Under the pieces are notes generated by a model. The model saw only the letters and a list, made by a program, of their open reading frames with translations, made no database searches and was not told the origin of the DNA. 64,000 bases of DNA, from the NCBI RefSeq assembly GCF_022761115.1, contig NZ_JAKWJS010000002.1, positions 496,001 to 560,000 of the forward strand. Reading direction: 5' to 3'. This document shows positions 6,840 to 60,710 of this stretch, piece after piece (the stretch's first letter is position 1; each line of letters begins with the position of its first letter). This stretch comes from Dyella sp. RRB7. Its GTDB lineage: Bacteria; Pseudomonadota; Gammaproteobacteria; Xanthomonadales; Rhodanobacteraceae. A program made the position numbers and the translations under genes.

Positions 6840-7324
6840 GATCGATCCTTCGCGCGGGCGAACGCCGGCCTCTCCGGTCAGGGGAGCCGCTATGCCGCGG
6901 GTTTACGGGGTTAGGAAAGCGGGCGCGCCAGGCGAGACGTCGGTCTCCAGCCAGCGGCACCGGATGCACGATAACTGGATTGAGAATGATTCGCAATATC
7001 TTGCGGATGGCGCATTGTCACACCTCCCCTCATCCGCCACAGCCCACGCTGCGATGGGTGATCGCAGGTGTGTGCGAGGCGCCAGAGGTATGGACGTCAC
7101 ACCTGCCGCATCCACCATCCGGCAAGCATCCTCTGGCCTAGCGGAAAAGACGGCGGACCCTGCTAGCCTTGCGCCGCCAGCGCACGTCGCGCTGGCGTCC
7201 TCGCCAGGCCTGTCGCCGGCGAAACAACAGGGGCACCGCGCCGTGCAGAGCCAGCCAGGTCATCCATCGGATAACCTGCTGGCCCAACCCGTGTCCCTAT
7301 ACAACCAGACAGCGGAAGCCCGGC
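6840..7324. other. Divergent regulatory region, iron operon / polysaccharide locus
   Basis: These 485 bases separate the minus-strand iron operon from the first plus-strand polysaccharide gene. Apart from the Fur box at 6979-6997 I see no defined site. The stretch 7100-7324 must contain the promoter of the UDP-sugar dehydrogenase gene, but no clear -35/-10 pair stands out. Open frames running through it upstream of 7325 look non-coding. Confidence 0.5.
6979..6997 (-). promoter_or_regulatory. Fur box of the siderophore receptor operon
   Basis: The 19-bp sequence ATTGAGAATGATTCGCAAT is an imperfect palindrome that fits the Fur consensus built of NATWAT-type hexamers (GATAATGATAATCATTATC). It lies about 140 bases upstream of the siderophore-receptor start. 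Repression by iron-loaded Fur of the receptor-piuC-Sel1 operon is the natural reading. Confidence 0.8.
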
Positions 7325-8602
7325 ATGCAGAATCTGGAAAACACCAAGCTCGCCATCATCGGACTCGGCTACGTCGGCCTTCCGTTGGCGGTGGAATTTG
7401 GCAAGCGTTACGACACGGTCGGTTTCGACATCAACCAGGGCCGCATCGAAGAGCTGCGCGGCGGTCGCGACAGCACGCTGGAGGTCAACGCCGAGGAACT
7501 GGCTGCATCGCAGCATCTGCGCTTCAGCGCCGAGCTGGCCGACCTTGCCGACCGCAACGTCTATATCGTGACCGTGCCCACGCCGATCGACTCGGCCAAG
7601 CGTCCCGACCTCACGCCGCTGATCCGCGCCAGCGAAACGCTGGCCAAGGTGCTCAAGCGCGGCGACGTGGTGGTGTATGAATCCACCGTCTATCCCGGCT
7701 GCACCGAGGAAGTGTGCGTGCCGATCCTGGCCAAGGGCTCGGGCCTGGTGTTCAACCAGGATTTCTTTGCCGGCTACAGTCCCGAGCGCATCAACCCGGG
7801 CGACAAGCAGCACCGCGTCACCAGCATTCTCAAGGTCACCTCCGGCTCCACGCCCGAGACGGCCGATTTCGTGGATCGCCTGTACGGCTCCATCATCACG
7901 GCCGGCACGCACAAGGCCAGCTCGCTGAAGGTGGCCGAGGCGGCCAAGGTCATCGAGAACACCCAGCGCGATCTCAACATCGCCCTGGTCAACGACCTTT
8001 CCATCCTGTTCAACAAGCTGGGCATCGATACGCTGGAGGTGCTGCAGGCGGCGGGTACCAAGTGGAATTTCCTGCCGTTCCGGCCGGGCCTGGTGGGTGG
8101 CCACTGCATCAGCGTGGATCCGTACTACCTCACGCACAAGGCGCAGGAAGTGGGCCATCACCCCGACGTGATCCTGGCCGGGCGTCGCACCAACGACAGC
8201 ATGGGGCCGTACGTCGCCAGCGAAGTGATCCGCCTGATGGTGCGCAAGGGCATCAATCCGGTGCGCGCACGCGTGCTGGTGCTGGGCCTGGCCTTCAAGG
8301 AGAACTGCCCGGACCTGCGCAACACGCGCGTGGTGGACATCGTGCAGGCCCTGCGCGGTTACAACGCCCAGGTGGACGTGCACGACCCGTGGATCAACCC
8401 GGCCGAAGCCGAGCACGAATACGCGCTCACGCCCCTGGCCGATCCGCAGGCTGGCAATTACGACGCCGTGATCATCGCGGTGGGACATCGCCAGTTCGTC
8501 GCGCTTGGCGCTGCGGGCATCCGCGCCTTCTGCAAGCCGGAGTCGGTGGTGTACGACGTGAAGTATGTGTTGCCGCGCGCCGATGTGGACGGCCGCCTCT
8601 AG
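7325..8602 (+). CDS. Nucleotide-sugar dehydrogenase, TviB/WbpO type
   Basis: This 425-residue enzyme oxidises a UDP-sugar at C6 to the uronic acid with NAD. The N-terminal Rossmann motif is LAIIGLGYVGLPLAVEFG; the middle helix region has SLKVAEAAKVIENTQRDLNI; the catalytic cysteine is C261 in GGHCISVDPYY. This subfamily (TviB, WbpO, WbpA relatives) mostly acts on UDP-N-acetylhexosamines, giving UDP-GalNAcA or UDP-GlcNAcA; UDP-glucose cannot be excluded. I chose the ATG at 7325 (MQNLENTKLAIIGLG), since the upstream in-frame extension is low-complexity and not family-like. It begins the polysaccharide locus and is followed by an epimerase 17 bases later. Confidence 0.93.
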   Translation: MQNLENTKLAIIGLGYVGLPLAVEFGKRYDTVGFDINQGRIEELRGGRDSTLEVNAEELAASQHLRFSAELADLADRNVYIVTVPTPIDSAKRPDLTPLIRASETLAKVLKRGDVVVYESTVYPGCTEEVCVPILAKGSGLVFNQDFFAGYSPERINPGDKQHRVTSILKVTSGSTPETADFVDRLYGSIITAGTHKASSLKVAEAAKVIENTQRDLNIALVNDLSILFNKLGIDTLEVLQAAGTKWNFLPFRPGLVGGHCISVDPYYLTHKAQEVGHHPDVILAGRRTNDSMGPYVASEVIRLMVRKGINPVRARVLVLGLAFKENCPDLRNTRVVDIVQALRGYNAQVDVHDPWINPAEAEHEYALTPLADPQAGNYDAVIIAVGHRQFVALGAAGIRAFCKPESVVYDVKYVLPRADVDGRL

Positions 8603-11400: not shown

Positions 11401-11419
11401 GCCACCTTGCGCAGCCGTC

Positions 11420-12366: not shown

Positions 12367-13767
12367 ATGCTTCGTTTCCTACGTCGGCAATCGGTACGCT
12401 GGCTGATGCTGCTCGGGTTTTGCGAGCTGCTGCTGCTTGCTGCGTCGTTATGCCTGGCCACTTACCTGCGCTATTTCAGCAATGCCGATGAGCTGGCCGA
12501 GTTCAGCGTGCACCTGCCGGAACGCTCGATGGTGTTCGCCACCGTCATCGTCATCGGCATGGTGGCCATGGGCCAGTACCAGTCGCATATGCGCACTACC
12601 CGCTTTGGCCTGCTCGCACGCCAAGCGGTGGCTTTCGTGCTGGGCGGCGTGCTGCTGGTGGTGGGCTACTACGTCGTGCCGCAGGCCTATGTGGGCCGCG
12701 GCGTGCTGGCCATCGCGCTGTCGCTCGGCTTCGCGCTGGTGCTGGGATGCCGGATGTTGTTCCTGCAACTGGTGGAGGTGGAAGCGCTCAAGCGTCGCGT
12801 GCTGATTCTCGGCGCCGGCGTGCGCGCAGCGCAGATCCACAACCAGATGCGCCGCCGCACCGATCGCCGCGGCTTTTGCGTGATGGGCTATGTGCCGCAT
12901 GCCGATGAAACCGTCGCGGTTCCCACCGAGCAGCTGGTACTGCGGAACCAGCCGTTGCACGCGATCGTGCTGCGCGAGCAGATCGACGAAGTGGTGGTGG
13001 GCGTCGATGACCGCCGTGGCCACCTGCCCATGGACGAGTTGCTCGAATGCCGCCAGATGGGCGTCACCATTACCGACCTCACCTCGTTCTTCGAGCGCGA
13101 ATCGGGCCGCCTGCAACTGACCGTGCTCGATCCGTCATGGCTGGTGTTCTCCGGCGGCTTCAACGCCACGCCGCTGCGCCAGTTGAGCAAGCGCTGCTTC
13201 GACCTGGCCGCTGCCACGCTGCTGCTGCTGCTGTGCTGGCCGCTGATGCTGCTGGAAGCGCTGGCGATACGCCTGGAGTCGGGCCCGGGCCAACCGATCC
13301 TGTACCGGCAGGAACGCGTCGGCGCACACGGCTGCACTTTCCTGCTGCTGAAATTCCGCAGCATGCGCACCGATGCCGAACGCGACGGCATAGCCCGCTG
13401 GGCCAGCAAGAACGACGATCGCGTCACGCGCGTGGGACGCATCAGCCGCAAGCTGCGCATCGATGAATTGCCGCAACTGTGGAACGTACTGAAGGGCGAC
13501 ATGAGCATCGTCGGGCCCCGCCCCGAACGGCCGCAGTTCGTGGCCGACCTGGCCTCGCAGATCCGCTACTACAGCCTGCGCCATTGCCTGAAGCCCGGCC
13601 TCGCCGGTTGGGCGCAACTGAGCTATCCCTACGGCGCCACCGTCGAGGAGGCGGCGGAGAAGCTCAAGTACGATCTGTTCTACGTAAAGAACCATAACCT
13701 GCTGCTGGATCTGCTGATCCTGATCCAGACAGTGGAAGTGGTGCTCTTTGGCCGTGGCGCGCGCTAG
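12367..13767 (+). CDS. Undecaprenyl-phosphate sugar phosphotransferase (initiating enzyme)
   Basis: This 466-residue polyprenyl glycosylphosphotransferase starts polymer synthesis by moving a sugar-phosphate to the lipid carrier at the inner membrane. The N-terminal half has four or five membrane segments (LLGFCELLLLAASLCLATYL onwards) and a Rossmann-like CoA-binding region (RVLILGAGVRAAQI). The C-terminal catalytic part has a membrane helix (LAAATLLLLLCWPLMLLEAL) and the family motifs YRQERVGAHG, FRSMRTDAE, LRIDELPQLWNVLKGDMS and GPRPERP. The architecture and the first residues resemble TIGR03013, the sugar transferase found with exosortase A systems. It converges on the J-domain gene with a 4-base overlap. 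Confidence 0.93.
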   Translation: MLRFLRRQSVRWLMLLGFCELLLLAASLCLATYLRYFSNADELAEFSVHLPERSMVFATVIVIGMVAMGQYQSHMRTTRFGLLARQAVAFVLGGVLLVVGYYVVPQAYVGRGVLAIALSLGFALVLGCRMLFLQLVEVEALKRRVLILGAGVRAAQIHNQMRRRTDRRGFCVMGYVPHADETVAVPTEQLVLRNQPLHAIVLREQIDEVVVGVDDRRGHLPMDELLECRQMGVTITDLTSFFERESGRLQLTVLDPSWLVFSGGFNATPLRQLSKRCFDLAAATLLLLLCWPLMLLEALAIRLESGPGQPILYRQERVGAHGCTFLLLKFRSMRTDAERDGIARWASKNDDRVTRVGRISRKLRIDELPQLWNVLKGDMSIVGPRPERPQFVADLASQIRYYSLRHCLKPGLAGWAQLSYPYGATVEEAAEKLKYDLFYVKNHNLLLDLLILIQTVEVVLFGRGAR

Positions 13768-31472: not shown

Positions 31473-32575
31473 CGCACCTGGAAGACAGCGGCAGGGCCGT
31501 CGGCCTGCGTGGACAACTCGGCCAGCTGTGCTACAGCAGCGGCCTGCTGCATTCGCTGCAGCGCGTGCGCTCGTGGTGGCGCCGGGACCTGCGCGTGCTG
31601 GCGTACCACCGCGTGCTGCCATTGCCCGATCCGGCCAGCTACGAGTTCGACCTCGGACTGATCAGCACGCCGCCGGAGCAGTTCCGCGAGCAGATGCTGC
31701 TGCTCAAGCAGCGCTTTCACCCGATGCGCCTGAGCGACGTGGCCGCCGCGATCGACGAAGGCCGCGAACTACCGGCCGACGCGGTGGTGGTGACTTTCGA
31801 CGACGGCTACGACGACAACTATCACGTGGTGTTTCCGATCCTGCGCGAACTGGGCGTGCCGGCCACGTTCTTCGTGTCCACCGGGCACATCGACAGCGGC
31901 CGCCCGTATGCCTATGACTGGCTGGTGCACATGGTCCTGCTGTCCCCGGCCACGCGCCTGTCGCTGCCGGAGCTGGGCCTGGACGTGGCGCTGCCCGCCG
32001 ACCGCAACGGCCGCCGCGCGATCGCGGTGGACGTGCTGTACCGCATGAAGGAACTGGGCGCGCTCGACCAGGCCGCGATGATCGAGCGGCTGGAACACGA
32101 ATGGGACATGCCCTCGGACGTCGCGCCGCCCGACTGCCGGCCGATGACCTGGGACCAGTTGCGCGAGATGCACGCGGCCGGCCTGGAGATCGGCTCGCAC
32201 GGCGTGCATCACTGGATGCTGTCCAAGCTGCCGCAGGCCGAGCTGGAGGCCGAGATTCGCCAGTCGAAGGAAGCGCTGGAGCGCGAACTGGGCGTGGCGC
32301 CGCTGCTGATGTCCTACCCGGTCGGCAGCGGTCGCGCATTCGACCAGCGCGTGATCGATGTCACCCGCGATGCGGGCTATGCACTGGCATGCAGCTACAT
32401 CAGCGGCACCAACCCGCAACCGGCATCGAATCGCTACGCGCTGTATCGCCTGGCGGTGGAACGCAACATGGGCAAGGGCTGGTTCGACGCCATGCTCACC
32501 ATGCCGAACCTGATGAGCTACCCCACGCCCGAGCACTTGAACGGACAAGGTGAATCGCCCGCATGTTCCCACTGA
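31466..32575 (+). CDS. Polysaccharide deacetylase, NodB/CE4 family
   Basis: This 369-residue protein has a carbohydrate esterase 4 domain: VVTFDDGYDDN with the catalytic and metal aspartates, SHGVHHWMLSKL with the metal histidines and YPVGSG near the C-terminus. CE4 enzymes remove N-acetyl groups from GlcNAc-type residues. No signal peptide is evident; the N-terminus is a basic helix, so it may act in the cytoplasm or on lipid-linked intermediates. It overlaps the GT2 gene by 7 bases and the polymerase gene by 13 bases, so it belongs firmly to this operon. Confidence 0.9.
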   Translation: MVTHLEDSGRAVGLRGQLGQLCYSSGLLHSLQRVRSWWRRDLRVLAYHRVLPLPDPASYEFDLGLISTPPEQFREQMLLLKQRFHPMRLSDVAAAIDEGRELPADAVVVTFDDGYDDNYHVVFPILRELGVPATFFVSTGHIDSGRPYAYDWLVHMVLLSPATRLSLPELGLDVALPADRNGRRAIAVDVLYRMKELGALDQAAMIERLEHEWDMPSDVAPPDCRPMTWDQLREMHAAGLEIGSHGVHHWMLSKLPQAELEAEIRQSKEALERELGVAPLLMSYPVGSGRAFDQRVIDVTRDAGYALACSYISGTNPQPASNRYALYRLAVERNMGKGWFDAMLTMPNLMSYPTPEHLNGQGESPACSH

Positions 32576-33828
32576 TCCTGCTCTACGTGGTGCTCACCAT
32601 CGTCCGGCCGCAGGAATACATGCCGGCGCTGCTGGGCGTGCCGGTGCTGCCGGTCACGCTTGGCCTCGCCTTCGTCTGCTGGCTGTTTTCCCGCGACCGC
32701 ACGTTCGCCGCGCCGCAGTTCCTCATCCTGGCGGTGTTCCTGCTGGTGGTGATGGTCTCCCAGGTGGTCAACGGCTGGTCCGGCGGTGCGCTGGCGCAGT
32801 TGGAGAAATTCGGCCCCACGGTGGCCGCCTTCTTCATCCTGGCCACGGCATGCACCCGTCGCCGTCGCGTCACCGTCACCATGGGGGTCATGGTGATCTG
32901 CGCCACCGTGCTGGCCTTGCATGGCATCCAGCAAGCCAGGACCGGCGTGGGCTGGACCGGCATACGGGTGGGCGAGGACGGACGCATCCAGTACATCGGC
33001 ATCTTCAACGACCCCAACGACCTGGGCATGCTGTTCGTGGCCACGGTGCCGATGGCGCTGTTCCTCAGTCGTTACGGCGGCGTGCCCGGCCGCCTGTTCT
33101 GGCCTGCCTGCGCACTGCTCCTGCTGTACGGCATCTACCTCACCAATTCCCGCGGCTCCCTGCTCGCCATCCTGGTCGTTGCGGGCATCTATGTATGGCA
33201 TCGCCGGGGCATCGTCACCGCCGGCGTGCTCGGCGCGATCGGGCTGGGCTGCATGAAGCTGCTGTCCTCGCGCATGCAGGAACTGGACGCAGGGGAGGAG
33301 TCGGCCAATGGCCGCGTCGATGCCTGGTATACCGGCCTCGATCTGTTCAAGTCGCATCCGGTGTTCGGCGTGGGCGCGGGCAATTTCACCGATTACAACG
33401 ACCTCACCGCGCACAACTCGCTGGTGCTGGTGCTGGCCGAAACCGGTTTCATCGGCTATGTGCTGTGGCTGGCCTTCGTCGGCTACAGCCTATGGATGAT
33501 GATCGTCGTGCTGCGCCGCAAGCCCGATGCCGCCACCGAGCCGGAGCAGTTTGCGCTGTGGCAGGCCGAACGTCCGTTGACGCTCACCCTGCTGCTGTCG
33601 ATGTGCGGCATGTTCGCCTGCGCGTTCTTCCTCAGCCGCAGCTACATGGTGGTGCTCTACCTGATCCTTGCCATGGTGGTGGGCTACTACATCGGCTTGC
33701 GTCAACGCCTGCCGTGGCTGCCGGGCTTCAGCCTGGGCAACGGCGGCTGGCGCTGGGTGCCGGCGGCCATGGGCAGCATCGCCGGGCTGTACGTGCTGGT
33801 GGCCGTGCTGTTGAGGACGGTCGGATGA
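32563..33828 (+). CDS. O-antigen ligase/polymerase-like membrane protein
   Basis: This 421-residue inner-membrane protein has about ten hydrophobic segments (LILLYVVLTIV, FLLVVMVSQVV, LLLLYGIYLTNSRGSLLAIL and others) and the Wzy_C-type periplasmic region SHPVFGVGAGNF with HNSLVLVLAETGFIGYVLW. It fits the putative O-glycosylation ligase family associated with exosortase A (TIGR03097), and could be the polymerase of the locus. The start MFPLILLYVVLTIVRPQEYMP is typical of that family. Confidence 0.88.
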   Translation: MFPLILLYVVLTIVRPQEYMPALLGVPVLPVTLGLAFVCWLFSRDRTFAAPQFLILAVFLLVVMVSQVVNGWSGGALAQLEKFGPTVAAFFILATACTRRRRVTVTMGVMVICATVLALHGIQQARTGVGWTGIRVGEDGRIQYIGIFNDPNDLGMLFVATVPMALFLSRYGGVPGRLFWPACALLLLYGIYLTNSRGSLLAILVVAGIYVWHRRGIVTAGVLGAIGLGCMKLLSSRMQELDAGEESANGRVDAWYTGLDLFKSHPVFGVGAGNFTDYNDLTAHNSLVLVLAETGFIGYVLWLAFVGYSLWMMIVVLRRKPDAATEPEQFALWQAERPLTLTLLLSMCGMFACAFFLSRSYMVVLYLILAMVVGYYIGLRQRLPWLPGFSLGNGGWRWVPAAMGSIAGLYVLVAVLLRTVG

Positions 33829-47207: not shown

Positions 47208-48947
47208 TCACTGTTTGGCCTGCATGTCGGCCGGCACGGCGGCGCCGCTGCCCGGCGGCTGGCGGATCAGCCACTGCACCACGCCACTACCCAGGTTGTT
47301 CCAGTTGAATCGGCGCAATGTTCCGCCCTCGGCGGCGCAATCGGTGTTGTAGGACGAAGTCAGCGCCTCCATGCGACGCTTGAGGGCGGCACTCTGCGCC
47401 GGGTCCTGCTCGAAGTAATAGGCGGCGGCCACTGGCAATCCCAGCTCCACGTTGTGCGCATCGCTATACCAGCCATCGGAATCCTCGATATCGGCAAGCG
47501 CCTTGACGGGAACGTGTGCGGACGACCAGTACCAGGCGATCAATCCATTGGGCCCCGAGCACGGAAAACGCCAATCGTGAAACTGGGCAAGCACCTTGGG
47601 ATCGATCCAGCCGTAATTCTCCAGGTAGCGACCATAGGACGTGATCATCTGCGGGATGCGCTTGTCGCCCGTTACCAGCCAGGCATGCCACAGCCCATCG
47701 ACGATGTTCTCGCTCATCCACGGCGAATTGCCGCGCACGTCGGTGGCGGGGTCCCAGGTGTCCCCTTCGTGCTTCTGCCAGCTGCTGCGCCAGGAGCCAT
47801 CGTCGCCCAGGCCATCGGGATTCTTGCGCTGGTGATCGTAGAGCCAGCCCACGCGCTGGTTGATCAACGAGAGATAGTGCGGCTGCCCGGTGAGCTCATA
47901 CGCGCTTACGGTTTCCAGCAGGCCCAGGCCGGCCTGGCGTTCGGTGAAGAACTCCGACGGATGGGCATACGGACCCGGCCGTCCGCTCCAGCCGCCGTTC
48001 TCCCACAGCGTCACCATCTTGCCGACGGTGGCGAGGTCATGGCTTTCGTCATTGCCGGTAAGCGCCACGGCAAGCAGGATCGGTTCCACATAGACGTACT
48101 TGGTGTCGCACGGCTTGCCACTGAAGGCCCAGCCGCCACCGCAGAACGGATCCATCGGCAGGCCTTCGCGCTTGATGTTCTTCATGTAGAAGCGATAGCT
48201 GAGATCGGCCGCCTGCAGGTAATCGAAACGCCCCGTACGCAGGTACGCCTTGAACAGCGTGCTCGGGCGGTCGAACAGCCAGGCCGAGAAATCGTCCACC
48301 GGCAACTTGCTGGCCCATTCGAACTGGCGCGACACGTACTTCGCATACGGCTCGTTGGGCGTCGCGGGCTGCTGCGGCCCGGCAATCAGCGAAGCGCACA
48401 ACCAGGCCGGTGTCAGCGTGCCCAGCACCATCGGCACACGCAGGCCCTGCGGGCCGTCGACCAGGCCGGCCTCGTAGGGCCAGCCGGCGATGTCCTGCTG
48501 CCGTGGCTTGCCGATGGCGAAGTAGTACGTCTCCTGATCCGTCGCCAACGGCGCGTGAAACTGCACCCGCACGGCGCGGATGCTGTTGTCCTTGGCGTAC
48601 CAGCGCAACGTCACCTTGGCCACCGAGGCCACTTCGTTGCCCTTCGCGTCGAGGATGCGCAACCGCTGGGGATCCGTCAGCATTCCCGGCGGAAACGGGA
48701 TGCCCACCGATGCCAGCACCGGCGACCCGCTGCCGCCATTGCGATGCAGGACGATGCGCTGGTCCGGCACGATGTCCGATGCGATGGGCCCGATATCCGC
48801 GCCATGCTTGCCCGCGACACTCGTGCTGCTCGCTGGGGTCGCCTGCCCCGCCTGATGCCTGGCGGCGACGGCAACACCCGCAAGACCCAGCAGCAGGAGG
48901 ATGCCGATCGAGCAGGCGCGCAACACGGGCCCGGGCCTAACTGACAT
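47208..48947 (-). CDS. Secreted protein, putative helical-barrel carbohydrate-active enzyme
   Basis: This 579-residue protein has an N-terminal signal peptide or anchor (ACSIGILLLLGLAGVAVA). A beta-rich part (about 50-180: ASVGIPFPPGML, VTLRWYAKDNSIRAVRVQFH, ETYYFAIGKP) is followed by a long aromatic and helical part (YRFYMKNIKREGLPMDPFC, GGWSGRPGPYAHPSEFFTE, SENIVDGLWHAWLVTGD). This combination resembles exo-lyases and (alpha/alpha)6-toroid enzymes acting on polysaccharides, but no family can be named safely. Placed between galE and the flippase genes, it is probably a periplasmic lyase or hydrolase for the polymer. Its start overlaps the end of galE by 11 bases. Confidence 0.75.
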   Translation of the reverse strand: MSVRPGPVLRACSIGILLLLGLAGVAVAARHQAGQATPASSTSVAGKHGADIGPIASDIVPDQRIVLHRNGGSGSPVLASVGIPFPPGMLTDPQRLRILDAKGNEVASVAKVTLRWYAKDNSIRAVRVQFHAPLATDQETYYFAIGKPRQQDIAGWPYEAGLVDGPQGLRVPMVLGTLTPAWLCASLIAGPQQPATPNEPYAKYVSRQFEWASKLPVDDFSAWLFDRPSTLFKAYLRTGRFDYLQAADLSYRFYMKNIKREGLPMDPFCGGGWAFSGKPCDTKYVYVEPILLAVALTGNDESHDLATVGKMVTLWENGGWSGRPGPYAHPSEFFTERQAGLGLLETVSAYELTGQPHYLSLINQRVGWLYDHQRKNPDGLGDDGSWRSSWQKHEGDTWDPATDVRGNSPWMSENIVDGLWHAWLVTGDKRIPQMITSYGRYLENYGWIDPKVLAQFHDWRFPCSGPNGLIAWYWSSAHVPVKALADIEDSDGWYSDAHNVELGLPVAAAYYFEQDPAQSAALKRRMEALTSSYNTDCAAEGGTLRRFNWNNLGSGVVQWLIRQPPGSGAAVPADMQAKQ

Positions 48948-49932
48948 GATCGAGCTGCCGCGCGAGCTTCTGTTCCCAATGGAAGGCCGTACGCACGATG
49001 AAGTCGAGATCGTCGTAGCGCGGGTGCCAGTCGAGCACGTCCTGCAGCTTCGCGCTGCGTGCGATCAGCATGGGCAGGTCGCCGACGCGCCGGGGCCGCT
49101 CGATGATGTTGAGCGGCCGCCCGCTCACGCGCGTCACCGCGTCGATCACCTCGCGCACGCTGTAACCATGCCCGTACCCGCAATTGAGCGTCAGCGACGG
49201 GCCGCCGCGGCGCAGATGGTCCAGCGCGCGCAGATGCGCCGCGGCCAGGTCTTCCACATGGATGTAGTCGCGAATGCCGGTGCCGTCCGGCGTGTCGTAG
49301 TCGGTACCGTAGATGCACAGGCTGTCGCGCCTGCCCGCGGCGTGCTCGCAGGCCGCCTTGATCAGCAGCGTGGCATGCGGCGCCGAATGGCCGATGCGCC
49401 CGGCGGGATCGCAGCCGGCCACGTTGAAGTAGCGCAGGATCACATGCCGCAACCCGCTGGCGGCGCTGACATCGCGCAGTATGTTCTCGGACATCAGCTT
49501 GGACATGCCGTACGGGTTGAATGGCCGCGTAGGCGTGTCCTCGTCGGCAATGCCGCTATCGGTCAGGCCGTAGACCGCCGCCGTGGACGAAAAGATGAAG
49601 TGCGCCACCCCGGCCTCGGCGCAACACCCCAGCAGGTTGCAGGTGTTGCAGGTGTTGTTGCCGTAGTACTTCACCGGGTCGCTCACCGATTCGGGCACTA
49701 CGGTATGCGCCGCAAAATGCAGCACCGTATCCACCCGATGATGGGCGATCACACGCGCGACAAGCTCGCGGTCACCGACATTGCCGACCACCAGCTCGGC
49801 ATCATGCACCGCCTCGGCAAACCCGGAAGAAAGGTTGTCGATCACCACCACGCGCTCGCCGCGTGCCGCCAACTGTTGCACGACATGGCTGCCGATATAA
49901 CCGGCGCCGCCGCTGACCAGGACACCGTTCAT
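48937..49932 (-). CDS. galE: UDP-glucose 4-epimerase
   Basis: This 331-residue extended SDR has MNGVLVSGGAGYIGSHVV, IDNLSSGFAEAV, FIFSSTAAVYG, YGMSKLMSEN (YxxxK), RYFNVAGCDPAGRIGHS and RDYIHVEDLAAAH, all classic GalE signatures. It interconverts UDP-glucose and UDP-galactose (or the N-acetyl forms) for the glycosyltransferases. The ATG at 49932 overlaps the TGA of the upstream hydrolase gene (ATGA); the long upstream in-frame extension is antisense to that gene's coding sequence and not real. Confidence 0.95.
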   Translation of the reverse strand: MNGVLVSGGAGYIGSHVVQQLAARGERVVVIDNLSSGFAEAVHDAELVVGNVGDRELVARVIAHHRVDTVLHFAAHTVVPESVSDPVKYYGNNTCNTCNLLGCCAEAGVAHFIFSSTAAVYGLTDSGIADEDTPTRPFNPYGMSKLMSENILRDVSAASGLRHVILRYFNVAGCDPAGRIGHSAPHATLLIKAACEHAAGRRDSLCIYGTDYDTPDGTGIRDYIHVEDLAAAHLRALDHLRRGGPSLTLNCGYGHGYSVREVIDAVTRVSGRPLNIIERPRRVGDLPMLIARSAKLQDVLDWHPRYDDLDFIVRTAFHWEQKLARQLDHVS

Positions 49933-50765
49933 GACGAAGCACCTGCGTGGGCAATGGGGAAATTGCGCTGGAGCCACGCCTCGATATGCTCGATCAGATG
50001 CCGACGATCGTCGACAAGCACATAGGTGTGGTCGGTTTCCTCGATATAGCGCGTGCTTACGGCGGGCCGATTCATGAGGCTGCCGAAACACTCGCGGAAC
50101 TGGCGCGCATGGTTGAAGTCCATGTTGATGCCGCCGCTGTAGACAAGACATAACTTCAGGCCGCGATCGAGCATCCCCTTCAAGTCCACCCGAACCACGT
50201 CCTGCGGTAGCGGCGCGACGCCGAACACCGGTTCGTTGCCTCCGCCACCGACCTCCCGCGACTTGCGCACCAACCATCGCCACCAACGCTTTGCGTTGAA
50301 CAGGCGCGGCAGGTAATGACGCAGCCTGAAGCCGAAGGTGCGGTAGGCATAGCCGTCGAGGAACACCACGCCATCGAGCTTTTCGTGACTATGCTCGCCG
50401 CATGCGACGGTGTGCGCGTTCTGCGCGCCCGAGCACAACCCCACCAGCACGAAGCGCGAACAGGCGGCATGCTGGTGCAACAACGCCATCGCATCGTCCA
50501 CGTCGGCGCACACCTGCTGCACGCGTGTCTGCGATTCTCCACTGGCACCGCTGTCGCCGATGGTCGATTGATCGAAGCGCAGCGTCGGATAGCCCAGTTC
50601 ATTGAGCCGGCGGGTCATGTCCACATGCAGGCGAAACGGCCCGATGCGATGCACCAGCCCCGCGTTGAGCACGATCACACCGACCGCCCCCGGCGCCGTG
50701 GGCGGCAGGCCGGCAATGCCGACCAGATGCCGCGCGCGCCCAAAACGGAAGGCCTGCTCACGCAT
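49929..50765 (-). CDS. Alpha/beta hydrolase, exosortase-A-associated type 1
   Basis: This 278-residue protein resembles exosortase A system-associated hydrolase 1 (TIGR03100): GVIVLNAGLVHRIGPFRLHV, YPTLRFDQSTIGDSG, the nucleophile-elbow-like LVGLCSGAQNA, VVFLDGYAYRTFGFRLRHYL and the C-terminal EETDHTYV with the likely catalytic His. The elbow reads GLCSGA, with serine one position after the usual place or with Cys as nucleophile. The family's substrate is unknown; release or transfer of acyl groups is often suggested. I chose the ATG at 50765, which overlaps the upstream hydrolase end by 8 bases. Confidence 0.85.
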   Translation of the reverse strand: MREQAFRFGRARHLVGIAGLPPTAPGAVGVIVLNAGLVHRIGPFRLHVDMTRRLNELGYPTLRFDQSTIGDSGASGESQTRVQQVCADVDDAMALLHQHAACSRFVLVGLCSGAQNAHTVACGEHSHEKLDGVVFLDGYAYRTFGFRLRHYLPRLFNAKRWWRWLVRKSREVGGGGNEPVFGVAPLPQDVVRVDLKGMLDRGLKLCLVYSGGINMDFNHARQFRECFGSLMNRPAVSTRYIEETDHTYVLVDDRRHLIEHIEAWLQRNFPIAHAGASS

Positions 50766-51540
50766 ATGCGCGCTCCCGCAGATGGGCGACCACCGTCTGC
50801 ACCAGCGGGTGGGAAAGAATGGCCGTCTCGATCCGCGACAGTTCGTCCCAAGGCGTGTCCGGCCGCAGGCGATGCAACCTTGCCGGGTCTGGCACCCACT
50901 CGTGCCAGTCCGGCGACGCCTCGCCCAGCGAGTCAATCAGCAACGAAGGCGCCGTCAGCCGTTCCGCGCGCAGGCTGGCAATGCGCTGGCGCAACCCGGG
51001 GTTCACGGCAAAACCCAGCCACTGCCCTTCCGCCGCCGAGGCCGCACGGGGGCGGATGAAGCGATGCGTGTCGCGACGCAAGGCGTCCTGCAAGGCATCG
51101 AGCGTGGCGACGTAGGCGCTGCCATCCATCACCGGATCCCACGCCACCAGGTCCGTCAGTTGGGCGGATGGCGCGGCAGCGAGGGCGAGGTTCGCCCCCA
51201 GCCGCGCACCGAAGGCGGACACGCGATCAACGCTGCTGCGCGAGCGCAGTTCGGCCGCCGCCGTGGCGATGTCGTCCAGGCAACGATCCCAATCCACTTC
51301 ATCACTGGCGCCGGCCGAGTCGCCGCACCCGTAGTAGTCGAAGCGCAACACCGGGATGCCTGCGGCGGCCAAGGCGCTGGCGAGCTGTCGATAAAGCCGA
51401 TGGCAACGGATGTGGTCCTGCCCCAGCGGCGCGCACAACAGCACGGCCTTGGCGGCCGCCCCGGCCGCCGCGTGGTAGATCCCAAACAGCTCACCGTCTT
51501 GACCGAAGAAGAAAGGCAGTTCGCTCTCAAACCGCGTCAT
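50758..51540 (-). CDS. Alpha/beta hydrolase, exosortase-A-associated type 2
   Basis: This 260-residue protein matches exosortase A system-associated hydrolase 2 (TIGR03101): SELPFFFGQDGELFGIYHAA, AVLLCAPLGQDHIRCHRLYR, VLRFDYYGCGDSAG, then the elbow region VSAFGARLGANLALAAA and LVAWDPVMDG. The elbow reads FGARLGA, without an obvious serine nucleophile, so it may be a non-canonical or inactive hydrolase. The ATG at 51540 overlaps the TGA of the outer-membrane gene (ATGA). Confidence 0.83.
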   Translation of the reverse strand: MTRFESELPFFFGQDGELFGIYHAAAGAAAKAVLLCAPLGQDHIRCHRLYRQLASALAAAGIPVLRFDYYGCGDSAGASDEVDWDRCLDDIATAAAELRSRSSVDRVSAFGARLGANLALAAAPSAQLTDLVAWDPVMDGSAYVATLDALQDALRRDTHRFIRPRAASAAEGQWLGFAVNPGLRQRIASLRAERLTAPSLLIDSLGEASPDWHEWVPDPARLHRLRPDTPWDELSRIETAILSHPLVQTVVAHLRERAYA

Positions 51541-52880
51541 CGCTTGTACACCAGGGTCAGGAAGACCTCGTTCTCGTGATAGGACTGTCCCACCGCGTCG
51601 CTGGCCTGGATCTGCCGTACGAACGACGCGCTCCAGCTCCAATGCGACGTCAGCTGCTGGGAGAACGCGGTGCCGTAGCGATAGGCCTTGTCGTGGCGGT
51701 TGATCGTCTCGTAATCCAGCCGCCCGCCCGTCGCGAACGCCGACACGGTCATGGTGGGGGTCAGCTTGTAGTCGACGGTCGTGCCCACGCCCTTGTCGGT
51801 CTGGTTGAACGTGGTCTGGTTGACGTAGTCGAGCTTGCTGTAGGACGGCGCCAGCGAAAAACTGAAGCGCTCGTCGCGATAGCTATAGGTCAGCTCCATC
51901 TGCCGCTCTTTGTAGATGTCCGAGCTGATGATGACGTTGCCGACGCTGATGCCACCACGCGTGGTGTCGATGGCCTCGGTCAGCGGCTGCAAGGGCACCA
52001 GCTCGCCGCCGACGTTCACGTTGGTCGGCTGCAGCATGTCCTGCGTGGCGTCCGCGTATTGATAGTCGCCGTTCAAGGTAAGAGTGTTGCGCGGCGACAG
52101 GCGCCAGCCGATGGTCACCCGCGCCAGCGGAGAGGACTGCGACGCTCCCTGGGTGAAATCGATGTCCGACCATCCCAGCGCGGTATCGATATCGATCTGT
52201 TCCAGCCGGCTGGTGTAGCGGGCGTAGGCCTGATAGCTGGTGTAATTGGAGCCGGCCACGCTGGTGTTGTTGAAATCGACATGCTCGACGTCGATGTTCC
52301 CGGACAACTGGTCGGTGGGGCTAAGGTCGCGGAATATCCGGAAGGCGGCATCGCCACGCGATGAATTGAACTCGGTGACCTTGGATGCATAGCTGTTGAT
52401 GTAGTGAAGGTCCACCTCGCCGGTCATTCCGTCGCCAACCCGGAAGTGCAGCGTGGGCCCCAGGGCGATCACGTTGGTCTGCTGCTGGTTGTTCGGCGCA
52501 TTGGCGGCCAGGGAGTTGACCGGTTCCACGCCGGCGTAGTCCTGCACGGTGAAATCCAGCCGCTTCGGAATCACCGTCCAGTTCATCTGGCCGGCTATCT
52601 CCGCCAGCGTCTGGTTGTCGAAGGTGCTGCCGGAGTAATCCCGGTATTCGATGTTGCCGGTGACATTGGCCTGCAGCGTGGAACCCTGCTGGGTATAGGC
52701 GAAGTTCACGCCCGGCTCCAGCACGTTCGTGCTGATCGGATCGGTGGTGGTAAGCGCCGTGTTGTCGCTGTGCTCGATCGTGGTGTAAAGCGAGTAGTCG
52801 AACTGCCCCGCCCATGCGCTCCCGGAAACGGCGGCCAGCGCAAGGGCTATCGAGCGAGCGAGTGTAGTGCGTACCGCCAT
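51537..52880 (-). CDS. Outer-membrane beta-barrel protein, TIGR03016-like
   Basis: This 447-residue protein has a clear signal peptide (SIALALAAVSGSAWA) and an entirely beta-rich mature part of alternating strands (VTGNIEYRDYSGSTF, FRVGDGMTGEVDLHYIN, RMTVSAFATGG-like stretches), ending in VFLTLVYKR. It resembles the PEP-CTERM-system outer-membrane protein family TIGR03016, which is thought to support polysaccharide export or assembly in place of a standard Wza channel. The ATG at 52880 follows GGGGGAAGGAAC. Confidence 0.85.
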   Translation of the reverse strand: MAVRTTLARSIALALAAVSGSAWAGQFDYSLYTTIEHSDNTALTTTDPISTNVLEPGVNFAYTQQGSTLQANVTGNIEYRDYSGSTFDNQTLAEIAGQMNWTVIPKRLDFTVQDYAGVEPVNSLAANAPNNQQQTNVIALGPTLHFRVGDGMTGEVDLHYINSYASKVTEFNSSRGDAAFRIFRDLSPTDQLSGNIDVEHVDFNNTSVAGSNYTSYQAYARYTSRLEQIDIDTALGWSDIDFTQGASQSSPLARVTIGWRLSPRNTLTLNGDYQYADATQDMLQPTNVNVGGELVPLQPLTEAIDTTRGGISVGNVIISSDIYKERQMELTYSYRDERFSFSLAPSYSKLDYVNQTTFNQTDKGVGTTVDYKLTPTMTVSAFATGGRLDYETINRHDKAYRYGTAFSQQLTSHWSWSASFVRQIQASDAVGQSYHENEVFLTLVYKR

Positions 52881-52922
52881 GTTCCTTCCCCCAATGGATT
52901 GGTCGCAGCAGGAATCGCTCAC

Positions 52923-53708
52923 TCAGGGCAGATGATTGAACACCACCCCGGCCATCTTCTCCGGATCGAAATTCGTTACCGCTTGGTTGATCGCCGCCGG
53001 CGTGTCGCGCCCGTAGCCCGCCACCACCACCACGAAATCAGCGAGATCGGACAGGATGCGCGCATCCGGCGAGCCCTTGATCGCGGGGCCGTCCAGGAAC
53101 AGGTAGCGATCGGGGTAACGGCAGCGCAGCGAGTCGAGCATCGTGCTCATGCGGAACGAGGAGAAATACTCGCCGCTGTTCTCGCGCGCCCTGCCCGCGG
53201 GAATCAGCCGCAACCGCGGTATGCCGGTGCGATAAAGCACCGGTTCGATGCCGAGCGCCGGCTGTTCGAGGAAGTCGATCAATCCACCCGCCAGCGGCTC
53301 GACGCTCAATGCCTTGTGCTGGCTCGGATAACGCAGGTTGCAGTCGATCAGTAGGCTGGTCTTGGACTCGTCGAAGGCGAACGCCGCCGCCAGATTGCGC
53401 GTGACGAAGCTGCCACCGGAGCGCGGGCTTACCGATACCACCAGCGTGATGAAATTCTGTTGCCCGGCAATGCCAAGCAGACGCGTGCGGATCTCGCGGA
53501 ATGCATCGGACTGCCGACGCACCGACTCTTCGCGATGGATCAGCCGGCGTTCCTCCAGCTGCAATGGCACCAGCTCCCCCGCCCCTTCGTTCATGCGGGC
53601 AATCGAGTGGCCGGTCACGGCGTGATGCTGCAGGTTCTTGGCCGCCTCCTCGAGCACGTCCTCGATGCTGCCCTGCAGTCCGCTGTCGTTCTCGTCCTTC
53701 ATGTTCAT
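52923..53708 (-). CDS. Degenerate BY-kinase-like ATPase
   Basis: This 261-residue protein has the fold of the cytoplasmic domain of bacterial tyrosine autokinases (CpsD/Wzc/EpsG type). Walker A should read like SxxPGEGKS/T but here is SPRSGGSF (residues 94-101), so the catalytic lysine is missing. Walker A' is LLIDCNLRYP (about 119-128) and Walker B is YLFLDGPA (202-209). There is no tyrosine-rich tail. The protein is probably unable to phosphorylate and may act as a structural partner of the chain-length protein, whose TGA its ATG overlaps (ATGA). Confidence 0.85.
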   Translation of the reverse strand: MNMKDENDSGLQGSIEDVLEEAAKNLQHHAVTGHSIARMNEGAGELVPLQLEERRLIHREESVRRQSDAFREIRTRLLGIAGQQNFITLVVSVSPRSGGSFVTRNLAAAFAFDESKTSLLIDCNLRYPSQHKALSVEPLAGGLIDFLEQPALGIEPVLYRTGIPRLRLIPAGRARENSGEYFSSFRMSTMLDSLRCRYPDRYLFLDGPAIKGSPDARILSDLADFVVVVAGYGRDTPAAINQAVTNFDPEKMAGVVFNHLP

Positions 53709-55249
53709 TGCTTCAACCTCAGCCAGAACATGGCCAGGTAGACCGCGGCGATGCCCGCCACCGTGATCAACAGGAACATGTTGTGCAGCCGCTCACGGCG
53801 GCGATCGTCGGGCGTCGGGTAAAACGGTATGGCGGCCAACACGGCAAGGCCCGTCGCCTGTTCCAGCCGCTCCACCGAACGCACGCGCGGATCAAGCTTC
53901 ACCAGTCCGAACAACAGCCCCACGGGAACCGCCAGCGCCAGCGCGATGCCAGCCACGCTGAAGTGCATGAAACGCAGCCCCGATGGCGCCAGCGGCATCA
54001 CTGCTGGGTTTTGCACCAGGAAGGTAAGGCCGCGCTGCTCGGCGTCCAGATTCATCGAAACGCGGGCGTTCTCGCGGCGCTTGAGCAGGTCCTGGTAGAC
54101 GTCGCGATTGACGTTGTAGTCGCGCGTCAGCTCGGCCGTGACGTTTTCCGAGTTGGCGATGCGGGCGCTGCGCTGCAGTTCCGTCTGCAGCATGGCTTCG
54201 CTCGCGCTCAGCCGCGCCGCGGCAGCCGCCGTGCTCGCCCGCGTCGAGGAAAGCTGGGTCTTGATCTGCTCGTAGGCGGGATTGAAACGCACCGCGCCAT
54301 CGAGCGCCGTCGGCGATCCGGCCGCCTGCGCCGCGTCCTTGCGCTGGTCCGCCTGCGCCATCTGCTGCCGCACATCCTGCATCTGGTGCCGGATGCGGAC
54401 CACGTCGGGGTATTCGTCGGTATAGGTGAGCAGCAGCTTGTCCAGTTGCGATTGCAGGTCGGCCAGCTGGCTCTGGTAGATGCCGTCCGCGGTCTGCACG
54501 GTGCTCACTTCGGATTCACCGGTCAATTGCGACGCCAGTGAGCCCTCCTGCGAGCGCCGCTCCATCAGGTCCATGCGCGCCGTTTCGATCTGGCTGCGCA
54601 GCTGGCTGATGCGCGCGTTGGTATCGGCCTCGCTGCCGGGGCGCGCATCGTCATTGGCATCGCGATAAGCCTTGAGCTTGTCCTCCGCGTCGGTAAGCTT
54701 GGCCCGGTAAGCCTCGACCTGGCTGTTGATGAACTCGTAGGCCTCGCGGCTCTCGCGCTGCTTGGACGCCAGGCTCTCGCTGATGAATAGCTGGGCGAAC
54801 TGGCGCGTCACCTCATAGGTGCGCTTCGGGTCGGTGTCGAAATAGCTGATCGTGATGAGGTTGTCGTGCTCGGTCAGCACCTTGGTACGTGACTTGATGC
54901 CTTCGATGAGACGGTCCTGCTCCACCGGCGTGGGATGGGTGGCCATCCAGCCGCCCGCGACCAGGATCTCGCCCATCACCTTGCGGCTGAAAATCACGTC
55001 GCGCGCGATGCTTGCGCGGTTCTTGTTGGCGGTGGCCGCCGCCGCGCCCTCCATCAAGGGCGAGATGATGCTGCTCTCCTGCGCCAGGATGGTGGTGGAT
55101 GCCTCGTACTTCTTCGGCCACAACAGCCCCGTTACCAGCGCGGCGAGCGCGATAAGCGCAAAGATGATCCCCATCGTCAGCCGGCGACGGCGAGCCTCGC
55201 TCACCAAGGCGGGCAGCAGGCTGGCAAAAGGTGTGAGTTCCCCATTCAT
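53705..55249 (-). CDS. Polysaccharide chain-length determinant (Wzz/GNVR type)
   Basis: This 514-residue inner-membrane protein has an N-terminal membrane helix (LTMGIIFALIALAALVTGLL), a Wzz-type domain (LWPKKYEASTTILAQES), a long coiled-coil periplasmic region (about residues 180-410, for example QVEAYRAKLTDAEDKLKAYR and LSASEAMLQTELQRSARI) and C-terminal membrane helices (FSVAGIALALAVPVGLLFGL and MFLLITVAGIAAVYLAMFWL). Length and layout match the XrtA-type chain-length family TIGR03007. It controls polymer length with a kinase partner; here that partner looks inactive. The ATG at 55249 follows GAGGGGAAGGCT. Confidence 0.9.
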   Translation of the reverse strand: MNGELTPFASLLPALVSEARRRRLTMGIIFALIALAALVTGLLWPKKYEASTTILAQESSIISPLMEGAAAATANKNRASIARDVIFSRKVMGEILVAGGWMATHPTPVEQDRLIEGIKSRTKVLTEHDNLITISYFDTDPKRTYEVTRQFAQLFISESLASKQRESREAYEFINSQVEAYRAKLTDAEDKLKAYRDANDDARPGSEADTNARISQLRSQIETARMDLMERRSQEGSLASQLTGESEVSTVQTADGIYQSQLADLQSQLDKLLLTYTDEYPDVVRIRHQMQDVRQQMAQADQRKDAAQAAGSPTALDGAVRFNPAYEQIKTQLSSTRASTAAAAARLSASEAMLQTELQRSARIANSENVTAELTRDYNVNRDVYQDLLKRRENARVSMNLDAEQRGLTFLVQNPAVMPLAPSGLRFMHFSVAGIALALAVPVGLLFGLVKLDPRVRSVERLEQATGLAVLAAIPFYPTPDDRRRERLHNMFLLITVAGIAAVYLAMFWLRLKQ

Positions 55250-55289
55250 AGCCTTCCCCTCGTCCGTTCTCCCTGGACCATGCCGGACA

Positions 55290-55913
55290 TCAGAAAACCC
55301 GCAGTGGCACGGTGACCACATCGCCCGGTTGCACCGGATAGTTGGTCGCCAGGTCCCCTTGCTGCAGCACTTTGTCCAGCCGCACTGAGTACGGCGTGGT
55401 GGTGCCATCGCTGCCCTTGCGATACAGCTCGGTGCGATCGGGCGCCGCAAATTCCGTGGTTCCGCCTGCCGCCAGCACCGCGTCCAGCACGGTCATGCCC
55501 TGGCGATAAGGAATGGATATCGGTGTACGCACCGCACCGGTCACGCGCACCCGCGACAGGTACTCATGGCTGCGCAGCTCCGTGAGGATCACCGCCACCT
55601 GCGGGTCACGCACGTACGACTGCAGCTTGTCCTTGATCTCCCCGGCCACTTCCTCCGGCGTCTTGCCGCCGGCCATCACGTCGCCAATCAGCGGCACCGT
55701 GATCTTGCCGTCCGGGCGCACCGGCACGCTTACGCTCAAGTCCGGGTTATGCCAAACCGTAATCTGCAACTGGTCGTCGACACCGATGCGATAGCTGGTG
55801 ACCGCCTGTGCGCCGGGATCAATCTTGGGTGCTTCGGTGGAACCACGCCCCGTGGCGCACGCCGCCAACAGCAGAGCAACGCACAGCACGAGAAGAAAAC
55901 GGAAGTTCTTCAT
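55290..55913 (-). CDS. Polysaccharide export outer-membrane lipoprotein
   Basis: This 207-residue Wza/EpsA-like export protein has a lipoprotein signal with lipobox LLAAC and the Poly_export domain (SYRIGVDDQLQITVWHNPDL, VPVRPDGKITVPLIGDVMAG). A SLBB-like domain follows (RVRVTGAVRTPISIPYRQG, VLDAVLAAGGTTEFA) with the closing YPVQPGDVVTVPLRVF. It is shorter than E. coli Wza and matches the XrtA-system export lipoprotein (TIGR03027 type). It is the first gene of the minus-strand operon, which has a promoter and CRP-like site upstream. Confidence 0.93.
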   Translation of the reverse strand: MKNFRFLLVLCVALLLAACATGRGSTEAPKIDPGAQAVTSYRIGVDDQLQITVWHNPDLSVSVPVRPDGKITVPLIGDVMAGGKTPEEVAGEIKDKLQSYVRDPQVAVILTELRSHEYLSRVRVTGAVRTPISIPYRQGMTVLDAVLAAGGTTEFAAPDRTELYRKGSDGTTTPYSVRLDKVLQQGDLATNYPVQPGDVVTVPLRVF

Positions 55914-60085: not shown

Positions 60086-60161
<76 letters not shown>

Positions 60162-60189
60162 ATAAAACGAATTGTAACAACCAACAAAT

Positions 60190-60266
60190 TGGGGTGGACG
60201 ATGGGATTCGAACCCACGACAACCGGAATCACAATCCGGTACTCTAACCAACTGAGCTACGCCCAC
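60190..60266 (-). tRNA. tRNA-His (GTG)
   Basis: This gene of 77 bases on the minus strand begins with the extra G of tRNA-His (GTGGGCG) and ends with encoded CCA. The anticodon arm is CCGGA-TTGTGAT-TCCGG, anticodon GTG. Confidence 0.96.
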
Positions 60267-60280
60267 CATAAAACCTGAAT

Positions 60281-60357
60281 TGGCGCGCCCGACAGGAATC
60301 GAACCTGCAACCGTCGGCTTAGAAGGCCGATGCTCTATCCGGTTGAGCTACAGGCGC
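60281..60357 (-). tRNA. tRNA-Arg (TCT)
   Basis: This gene of 77 bases starts GCGCCTGTAGCTC and ends with CCA. The anticodon arm TCGGC-CTTCTAA-GCCGA gives anticodon TCT, and the T arm has GGTTCGATTC. Confidence 0.95.
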
Positions 60358-60384
60358 TTGTGCACACGGTGCATAGCATCTGCA

Positions 60385-60461
60385 TGGTCGGGGCAGAGGG
60401 ATTCGAACCCCCGACATCCAGCTCCCAAAGCTGGCGCTCTACCAGGCTGAGCTATACCCCG
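60385..60461 (-). tRNA. tRNA-Pro (TGG)
   Basis: This gene of 77 bases starts CGGGGTATAGCTCAG and ends with encoded CCA. The anticodon arm CCAGC-TTTGGGA-GCTGG gives anticodon TGG. Confidence 0.96.
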
Positions 60462-60633
60462 ATTTCGAACCCTCAACCGCCGAAGCGTGCTGAAGCTTAG
60501 AAATGCTACGGGTGACGCCTAGCCTAGTCAATCCGTATCAAAGCACACCGAACTTCAACTTTCGTCCGGTCCGCTTGGCGATTCACTGCCTTGCGGCACA
60601 AGTCATGATGTGAACATCACAGCTTGCTTCAAA

Positions 60634-60710
60634 TGGCGCGCCCGGAGAGATTCGAACTCCCGACCACCAAGTTCGTAGCCTGGTACTCTATCCAACTGAG
60701 CTACGGGCGC
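60634..60710 (-). tRNA. tRNA-Arg (ACG)
   Basis: This gene of 77 bases starts GCGCCCGTAGCTCAG and ends with encoded CCA. The anticodon arm CCAGG-CTACGAA-CTTGG gives anticodon ACG (read as ICG). It is the first tRNA of the operon, separated from the next by about 170 bases. Confidence 0.95.

Follow-up and report, generated by a model that had tools for sequence, protein, structure and literature searches.

Within a 64,000-nt stretch of the genome of Dyella sp. RRB7, which is referred to as the window, an open reading frame (ORF) at 47208–48947 on the minus strand codes for a protein of 579 amino acids (aa), here called P0001. With a probability of about 0.6, we read P0001 as a carbohydrate-active enzyme that combines a PcRGLX-like RIFT barrel with an (alpha/alpha) toroid and acts on the polymer of its own operon, an exopolysaccharide (EPS) export operon. 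We consider it very probable that P0001 is an enzyme active on glycans and serving this EPS; the odds of its being a lyase fall somewhat short of even.

The GC content of the ORF by codon position was 0.63/0.49/0.84, as in coding DNA here. Its start overlaps the end of galE (the galE ORF ends at 48937) by 11 bases, 52 bases separate its stop from the Wzx ORF, and a GTG at residue 8 is a possible alternative start. A chance ORF was rejected, as P0001 was found in 38 of 147 sampled genomes of the family and 37 residues are invariant over 59 sequences. Judged by eye, the N-terminus (MSVRPGPVLRACSIGILLLLGLAGVAVAA) is a signal peptide of the Sec type, cut at an AxA-like site near residue 29, which suggests that P0001 is exported. 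Neither a lipobox nor a C-terminal membrane anchor was seen when the sequence was read by eye, and a lipoprotein or anchored protein was set aside; the protein would be soluble, and either periplasmic or secreted.

The family had been called unrecognisable by eye in an earlier note on this DNA, and the searches agreed. P0001 had no match in NCBIfam or PADLOC, only one at E 0.086 in PHROGs, and a best Pfam match (C5-epim_C, E 0.05) of 13.5 bits against a cut-off of 23.3. PDB sequences, searched with the protein and with a profile of 59 rows, held no relative. Phage and plasmid records gave nothing at E<=1e-3, and there is therefore no sign of a phage depolymerase. Other matches to P0001 within its own genome were short and weak (E 0.0078 and 0.161).

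The structure was predicted with AlphaFold from a 59-row alignment of P0001 and 58 relatives, leaving out one locus (L105) with a truncated gene. The full model had a mean predicted local distance difference test score (pLDDT) of 86.7 and a predicted template modelling score (pTM) of 0.86, with pLDDT <50 at residues 1–24 and 28–55. DSSP placed strands at 64–178 and helices at 180–560, in keeping with the beta-rich N-part and helical, aromatic-rich C-part described earlier. The toroid modelled by itself reached a pLDDT of 93.3 and a pTM of 0.94, and its helices are paired (six hairpins, a number taken from the helix list). Both models were compared with the PDB using Foldseek at E<=10. Carbohydrate-active enzymes made up 47 of the best 50 of 627 matches for the full model, with a linalool dehydratase-isomerase and two complement C5 chains as the rest, and 49 of the best 50 of 772 for the toroid, where one ‘putative exported protein’ was the exception. 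Dfg5, which is kin to glycoside hydrolase (GH) family 76, was counted among the 49. The matches included unsaturated glucuronyl hydrolases, GH105, GH76, GH127, GH146, Cel48F, sugar 2-epimerases, one of which topped the toroid list, and the polysaccharide lyase (PL) family 27 enzyme BACCELL_00875. This search had been set beforehand as the refuting test, by way of a match to a non-enzymatic family, and its matches were overwhelmingly carbohydrate enzymes. The predicted C-terminal domain thus falls in the (alpha/alpha) toroid superfold of carbohydrate enzymes, and the fold of the ‘toroid enzyme’ proposed earlier was supported with both models.

Conserved residues gather where an active site would be expected. 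All but one of the 37 invariant residues lie in the toroid. Its helix starts were divided into two alternating sets (227, 288, 336, 409, 495, 545 and, as a control, 200, 241, 305, 356, 430, 516), the first being chosen after the alignment had been seen, and residues from -7 to +6 of each start were counted. Of the 19 invariant toroid residues of the types D/E/R/K/H/N/Q/Y/W/C, 13 stood at the N-ends of the first set (D226, R227, D281, K283, E336, R337, W410, N414, D496, H498, R545, N548 and W549) and 0 at those of the control; 4.1 were expected, and 13 was reached in 0 of 20000 shuffles. H393 is also invariant and Y494 nearly so. In the predicted model, such clustering of invariant polar residues on one rim resembles an (alpha/alpha) active site. 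The conserved residues would suit either a lyase, with a set of His, Asn and Arg together with Y494, or a hydrolase, with five carboxylates.

Distant paralogs of P0001 within the family align over nearly the whole length (E 1.5e-35). By our reading of this alignment, 9 of the 13 residues at the rim (D226, R227, D281, K283, E336, R337, W410, R545 and W549) are retained in them, as are H393 and D417, while D496 and H498 are shifted by about one column. A search with the profile of these paralogs across the phylum matched 6 of 398 genomes, the own genome included. Such conservation bears on a reading in which the fold no longer catalyses, and P0001 would be a glycan-binding or assembly protein, a chaperone or scaffold that guides the polymer to the Wza channel. 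The tight linkage to the export genes, described below, would suit it; charged and aromatic residues of the type used in catalysis are nevertheless invariant on one toroid rim from Dyella to distant relatives at 27–34% identity, and the paralogs retain most of them, which makes this reading very improbable.

The N-terminal domain points to polysaccharide lyases. At E<=1, PF19501, the RIFT barrel of PcRGLX, was matched by 14 of the 59 sequences in the alignment, the best at 1.4e-4; P0001 itself had no match. A class-wide profile search (8 of 369 genomes at E<=1e-6, own genome included) led to PcRGLX-like proteins and to a two-gene pair in one genome (G235) that aligns to the P0001 family over most of its length (E 1.1e-31). 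With hhalign, the N-domain of the family aligned to five PcRGLX-like proteins at E 2.6e-10 over 89 columns (residues 65–153), and by these profile comparisons it is homologous to the RIFT barrel of PcRGLX (PL26). PL26 proteins have exo-rhamnogalacturonan lyase activity, and their substrate is plant pectin, which is not expected to be the substrate of P0001. They presumably share with P0001 a C-terminal toroid as well. The PL26/PcRGLX-YetA-like proteins differ from P0001 in having the central beta-sandwich PF21345, which matched neither P0001 nor any of the 59 alignment members, and the P0001 model passes directly from the beta domain to the toroid with no sandwich between them. Membership of PL26 was set aside, as PF21345 gave no match and the toroids show no kinship by sequence.

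A similar general layout is that of the rhamnose-glucuronate exo-lyase BACCELL_00875 (PL27), second in rank for the full model, which according to PMC8377490 combines an N-terminal beta domain with an (alpha/alpha)6 barrel. The Foldseek match of 5no8_A to the full model had E 1.6e-3, template modelling (TM) scores of 0.31/0.28 and an overall root-mean-square deviation of 24.4; 5noa reached a TM of 0.54 by target against the toroid. BACCELL_00875 differs from P0001 in acting on gum arabic and shares only 10–11% identity with it at a TM of at most 0.54. No PL27 chain was found up to E 10 in PDB sequences by phmmer or profile search, and PL27 membership was set aside for lack of sequence homology to this enzyme.

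Two other chemistries were weighed against these matches. In the first, a sub-case of our reading, P0001 would be an inverting-type toroid glycosidase that cuts the EPS backbone or removes a side sugar with a catalytic pair from among the invariant carboxylates D226, D281, E336, D417 and D496. All five of these are invariant, toroids of GH76, GH105, GH127, GH146, Cel48F and the unsaturated glucuronyl hydrolases are among the matches listed, weak Pfam matches at E<=1 occur in the alignment for GH127 (19 of 59 members) and GH88 (4 of 59), and a comparable EPS cluster has the GH16 protein PrmQ, according to PMC11340318. The kinship of the N-domain to a polysaccharide-lyase family, the uronic acid that the locus probably makes and the lyase-type, heparinase-like proteins in some of the same operons speak against a hydrolase, none of them decisively, and we consider it unlikely. 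The unsaturated glucuronyl hydrolases, GH105, GH76 and GH127 share the superfold of P0001 but have TM at most 0.57 and ~9–16% identity to it, and their family models are not matched.

In the second, P0001 would be a polymer-level epimerase of the glucuronyl C5-epimerase kind, removing the C5 proton from a uronic acid residue of the chain and returning it on the opposite face, so that the polymer is edited and not cut. EPS operons do hold polymer epimerases such as AlgG, C5-epim_C was the commonest weak Pfam match of the alignment (26 of 59 members at E<=1, best 1.1e-3), and a sugar 2-epimerase leads the toroid list. The C5-epim_C match in P0001, however, spans 36 residues and lies below the cut-off, on which ground membership of the D-glucuronyl C5-epimerase family (PF06662) was set aside, and no C5-epimerase structure was among the best 50 fold matches of either model; an epimerase is improbable.

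Linkage to the export genes was assessed in a family sample of 147 genomes, with matches taken at E<=1e-3 for P0001 and at E<=1e-40 for TIGR03007, the XrtA-type chain length determinant. P0001 matched in 43 genomes, which a manual count from the match table divided into 38 with a full-length protein (own genome included) and 5 with a distant paralog only; the relatives in the 37 other carrier genomes had 55–75% identity. TIGR03007 was found in 79 genomes, namely in 38/38 carriers and 41/109 non-carriers (Fisher 2.3e-13, phylogeny ignored), although in one carrier (G131) the match was split over two contigs and lay below cut-off. The two genes were 6.3–7.7 kb apart in 37 of the 38 carriers, the remaining one being on a short contig, so the association with an EPS export operon held up as a tight one. 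In at least 31 of the 38 carriers, the gene for the dehydrogenase TviB was no more than 62 kb away from the toroid gene, among the matches listed and with TviB matches below cut-off included.

A GTDB genome scan for P0001 gave 59 related loci, mostly from Rhodanobacteraceae. They come from Dyella, Luteibacter, Rhodanobacter, Frateuria, Pinirhizobacter, Dokdonella and metagenome-assembled genomes (MAGs), and five distant ones, with 27–33% identity, come from Thalassotalea, Colwellia, Paraglaciecola and two further gammaproteobacteria. When the window proteins were searched against these loci by tblastn (E<=1e-8, >=35% of query), many loci being truncated, the kinase and the barrel were each found in 51, the chain-length gene and galE in 49, Wza in 47, each hydrolase in 44 and Wzx in 40. 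For two of the five distant relatives (L111 and L114), the surroundings are also an EPS-type cluster, with genes like those of Wzy and CapK. Some of the distant relatives (L111, L112 and L113) are ORFs of >1300 aa; in the two that were scanned (L111 and L112) FG-GAP repeats follow the toroid, and L111 also has PKD domains in front of it. One contig filed under Candidatus Eremiobacteraeota (L105) carried a 72% identical P0001 fragment with Wzx and other operon genes, and is probably a misbinned Rhodanobacteraceae contig.

Some related operons code for heparinase II/III-like proteins, which are lyase-type and whose family (PF07940) is not that of P0001. Such genes stand beside P0001 in 5 of the 59 loci (two Dokdonella, three MAGs), with two copies in L102 and L107 and one each in L099, L103 and L108; L044 covers the region of L107, and both of its copies pass PF07940. 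For comparison, 20 regions around TIGR03007 were taken from genomes without full-length P0001 and confirmed by tblastn after crude gene calls. Wza, Wzz, the kinase and the barrel were present in 20/20, and heparinase-like genes in four (L123, L134, L135 and L136), of which L134, L136 and L135 (genome G099) had PF07940 over cut-off. In L134 a heparinase-like gene directly follows galE, and one of its two copies is below the PF07940 cut-off; the L123 protein has no Pfam match, yet is 55–56% identical to a Dokdonella copy; L136 also carries a distant P0001 paralog. A PF07940 match (E<=1e-3) was present in 17 genomes of the family sample, and by manual count 9 of these had it at a distance of about 9 kb or less from TIGR03007. 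The heparinase-like proteins show the motif SHAHQDQG, presumably catalytic. PF07940 matched neither P0001 nor any gene of its own genome at E<=1e-3, and was not among the families listed for the 59-member alignment; membership of heparinase II/III was set aside accordingly.

Two observations were made in passing on these regions. Many distant paralogs (L033–L042) and one heparinase-like protein (L044, 6174–7907) resemble each other in a short terminal tail, for example IF.(N/H)GF(D/E), perhaps a shared C-terminal signal. In L133 (genome G038) a gene for a type IV secretion coupling protein (6486–8231, minus strand) follows galE at the place of the toroid gene in related genomes, which suggests a mobile element at this spot.

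Several results weigh against the proposed enzyme or its tie to the operon. Foldseek E-values were weak, with none <=1e-3 for the full model (best 1.2e-3) and one, 7.2e-4, for the toroid; as TM also stayed at or below 0.57, the matches support the superfold but not a family. The toroid fold is common to lyases, hydrolases and epimerases, and with no family-level match, catalytic residues cannot be transferred. Against the five PcRGLX-like proteins, some of them truncated, the toroid profile reached only E 0.097, in an alignment of 31 columns. Most of the 58 aligned relatives are closely related, so that invariance partly reflects short divergence; the excess at the rim was weaker when residues of any type were counted and those conserved at 90% were added (40/129 against 28 expected, 34/20000 shuffles), and N414 and N548 are lost in the distant paralogs. 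TviB was present in 141 of the 147 family genomes at E<=1e-150 (77 over cut-off), so that its mere presence is uninformative and physical linkage was used instead. Three of the five distant loci (L109, L112 and L113) had none of the tested EPS genes nearby, and 41 of the 79 TIGR03007 genomes had no full-length P0001 relative. Neither P0001 nor a heparinase-like protein was found by gene calls and tblastn in 16 of the 20 comparison regions, whose core is complete; P0001 is therefore an accessory of the operon and not part of its core.

The features of the window are listed in Table 1. The ‘export operon’ named earlier is present around P0001: upstream of it on the minus strand follow galE (start set at the methionine preceding the TIGR01179 match), the two ORFs related to TIGR03100 and TIGR03101, the barrel, a kinase of the TIGR03018 type, TIGR03007 and TIGR03027, and Wzx lies downstream. 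The XrtA-type Wza, chain-length determinant and initiating transferase are all over cut-off. Elsewhere in the window there are glycosyltransferases, two polysaccharide-deacetylase-like proteins and a PaaK/CapK-like ligase. Exosortase (PF09721) was absent at E<=1e-3 from this genome and from the 11 other genomes of the genus that were searched. Of the 147 family genomes, 7 had strong exosortase matches (E<=1e-62), and in 6 of these 7 the match and TIGR03007 shared a contig and stood within about 9 kb of each other. As judged from these genes, the locus is an exosortase-free version of an XrtA-type Wzx/Wzy EPS locus.

Table 1. Features of the P0001 gene and of the surrounding EPS locus, in window coordinates.
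Feature	Position	Strand	Basis
Unassigned secreted toroid protein (P0001), coding sequence, 579 aa, ATG start	47208..48947	-	ORF and relatives
Putative signal peptide, about residues 1–29	48861..48947	-	by eye; low pLDDT there
N-terminal beta domain, residues 64–178, PcRGLX-like RIFT barrel	48414..48758	-	model strands; PF19501; hhalign
(alpha/alpha) toroid domain, residues 180–565, presumed active site	47253..48410	-	toroid model; Foldseek; residue clustering
Wzx-type flippase, next gene downstream of P0001	45617..47155	-	PF01943 E 8.3e-18, over cut-off
galE, UDP-glucose 4-epimerase	48937..49929	-	TIGR01179, 427 bits over cut-off 262
Hydrolase ORF related to TIGR03100 (exosortase A system-associated hydrolase 1)	49929..50936	-	E 1.3e-23, 83.7 bits, below cut-off
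Hydrolase ORF related to TIGR03101 (exosortase A system-associated hydrolase 2)	50758..51642	-	E 6e-27, 94.8 bits, below cut-off
Outer-membrane beta-barrel protein (BBP2_2)	51537..52922	-	PF10082 E 8.4e-6, over cut-off
XrtA-type tyrosine autokinase	52923..53708	-	TIGR03018 E 3.1e-52, below cut-off
XrtA-type chain length determinant (Wzz) ORF	53705..55450	-	TIGR03007, 373 bits over cut-off 279
XrtA-type EPS export protein (Wza)	55290..55913	-	TIGR03027, 208 bits over cut-off 180
UDP-GlcNAc 6-dehydrogenase TviB	7169..8602	+	NF011729, 624 bits over cut-off 592
Initiating polyprenyl-phosphate sugar transferase, XrtA-type EpsB_2	12367..13767	+	TIGR03013, 570 bits over cut-off 393
Wzy-like polymerase/ligase	32563..33828	+	PF04932 E 1.5e-18, over cut-off; TIGR03097 E 3.7e-15, below cut-off

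The EPS region also encloses a large pair of non-ribosomal peptide synthetase and polyketide synthase genes (16231–30311, plus strand), with AMP-binding, KS, AT and class-III aminotransferase domains followed by two condensation and two AMP-binding domains. Near this pair are a 4'-phosphopantetheinyl transferase (11378–12205), a GMC oxidoreductase (9727–11400) and a TonB siderophore receptor (4545–6839). A single ORF (37548–40160, minus strand) matched both a dehydrogenase, presumably of the Gfo/Idh/MocA type, and an NAD-dependent epimerase, and an array of five tRNAs (Lys, His, Arg, Pro, Arg; 60086–60710, minus strand) adjoins the locus.

Since the locus has a TviB-type dehydrogenase, its polymer probably holds uronic acid, and by the annotation of the gene TviB would probably supply a 2-acetamido uronic acid. 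P0001 would act on the polysaccharide that its own operon makes and exports, in exo or endo mode, cutting stray or over-long chains in the periplasm or trimming the chain on exit; the polymer would not pile up, and chain length and viscosity would be set. The likeliest chemistry would be beta-elimination at the 2-acetamido uronic acid, with hydrolysis as the next candidate; a lyase is favoured because of the kinship of the N-domain, the uronic-acid gene and the heparinase-like neighbours in some operons. On a more specific and tentative view, to which we give less weight than to its being otherwise, P0001 might be the founding member of an undescribed PL family, with the RIFT barrel joined directly to the toroid, that cleaves an EPS containing 2-acetamido uronic acid in the periplasm of Rhodanobacteraceae, the dedicated homeostasis enzyme of an exosortase-free XrtA-type Wzx/Wzy operon, with the heparinase II/III-like protein sharing or replacing its role in related species.

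Precedents for such a role come from other systems. The alginate operon is synthase-dependent and not of the Wzx/Wzy type. The periplasmic alginate lyase encoded in it, AlgL (PL5), clears polymer from the periplasm, as given in PMC8829089, and is, as P0001 would be, a toroid lyase coded inside an EPS operon. It differs in its (alpha/alpha)5 fold and gave no sequence match in the PDB searches. A second precedent is a GH16 protein, a family whose fold is other than the toroid. In PMC11340318, the promonan Wzx/Wzy cluster of Sphingomonas LM7 codes for this protein, PrmQ, with a signal peptide; its authors predicted that it hydrolyses promonan during secretion, and its deletion gave rugose colonies, while a second glycosylhydrolase of the cluster, PrmN (GH10), gave no colony phenotype. 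The passages on this cluster show a core like that of the window (barrel, Wza, Wzz and kinase) and nothing marking the XrtA type. A glycan-modifying enzyme, WceF, is described for the biofilm of Pantoea stewartii in PMC7949094. The best reading is that P0001, as a periplasmic lyase or hydrolase, trims the polymer of its own operon as AlgL or PrmQ do. The statement in the earlier note that this role is unrecorded for this kind of locus was too strong given PrmQ, in a Wzx/Wzy cluster with the same core; its enzyme interpretation otherwise gained support from the toroid fold, the active-site-like clustering and the operon linkage. Among the open-licence papers listed, none dealt with a lyase or a heparinase encoded in an EPS locus of the XrtA type, and the words ‘lyase’, ‘hydrolase’ and ‘heparinase’ were absent at word start from the PEP-CTERM paper PMC1569441.

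The proteins related to P0001 are enzyme-like toroid proteins of a family that seems undescribed, and their presumed role is ordinary. The job of processing a polymer is known from other bacteria, and what is new is the sequence of this unnamed family. The Pel and Psl systems follow the same pattern through the roles of PelA and PslG. If our reading is true, P0001 would stand for a new family of secreted carbohydrate enzymes tied to one EPS operon, with no Pfam or NCBIfam match above cut-off, and would offer a tool to cut a biofilm polymer of unknown structure. The XrtA-type Wzx/Wzy loci would then join the pattern of alginate and promonan, in which an EPS operon codes for an enzyme that processes its own product.

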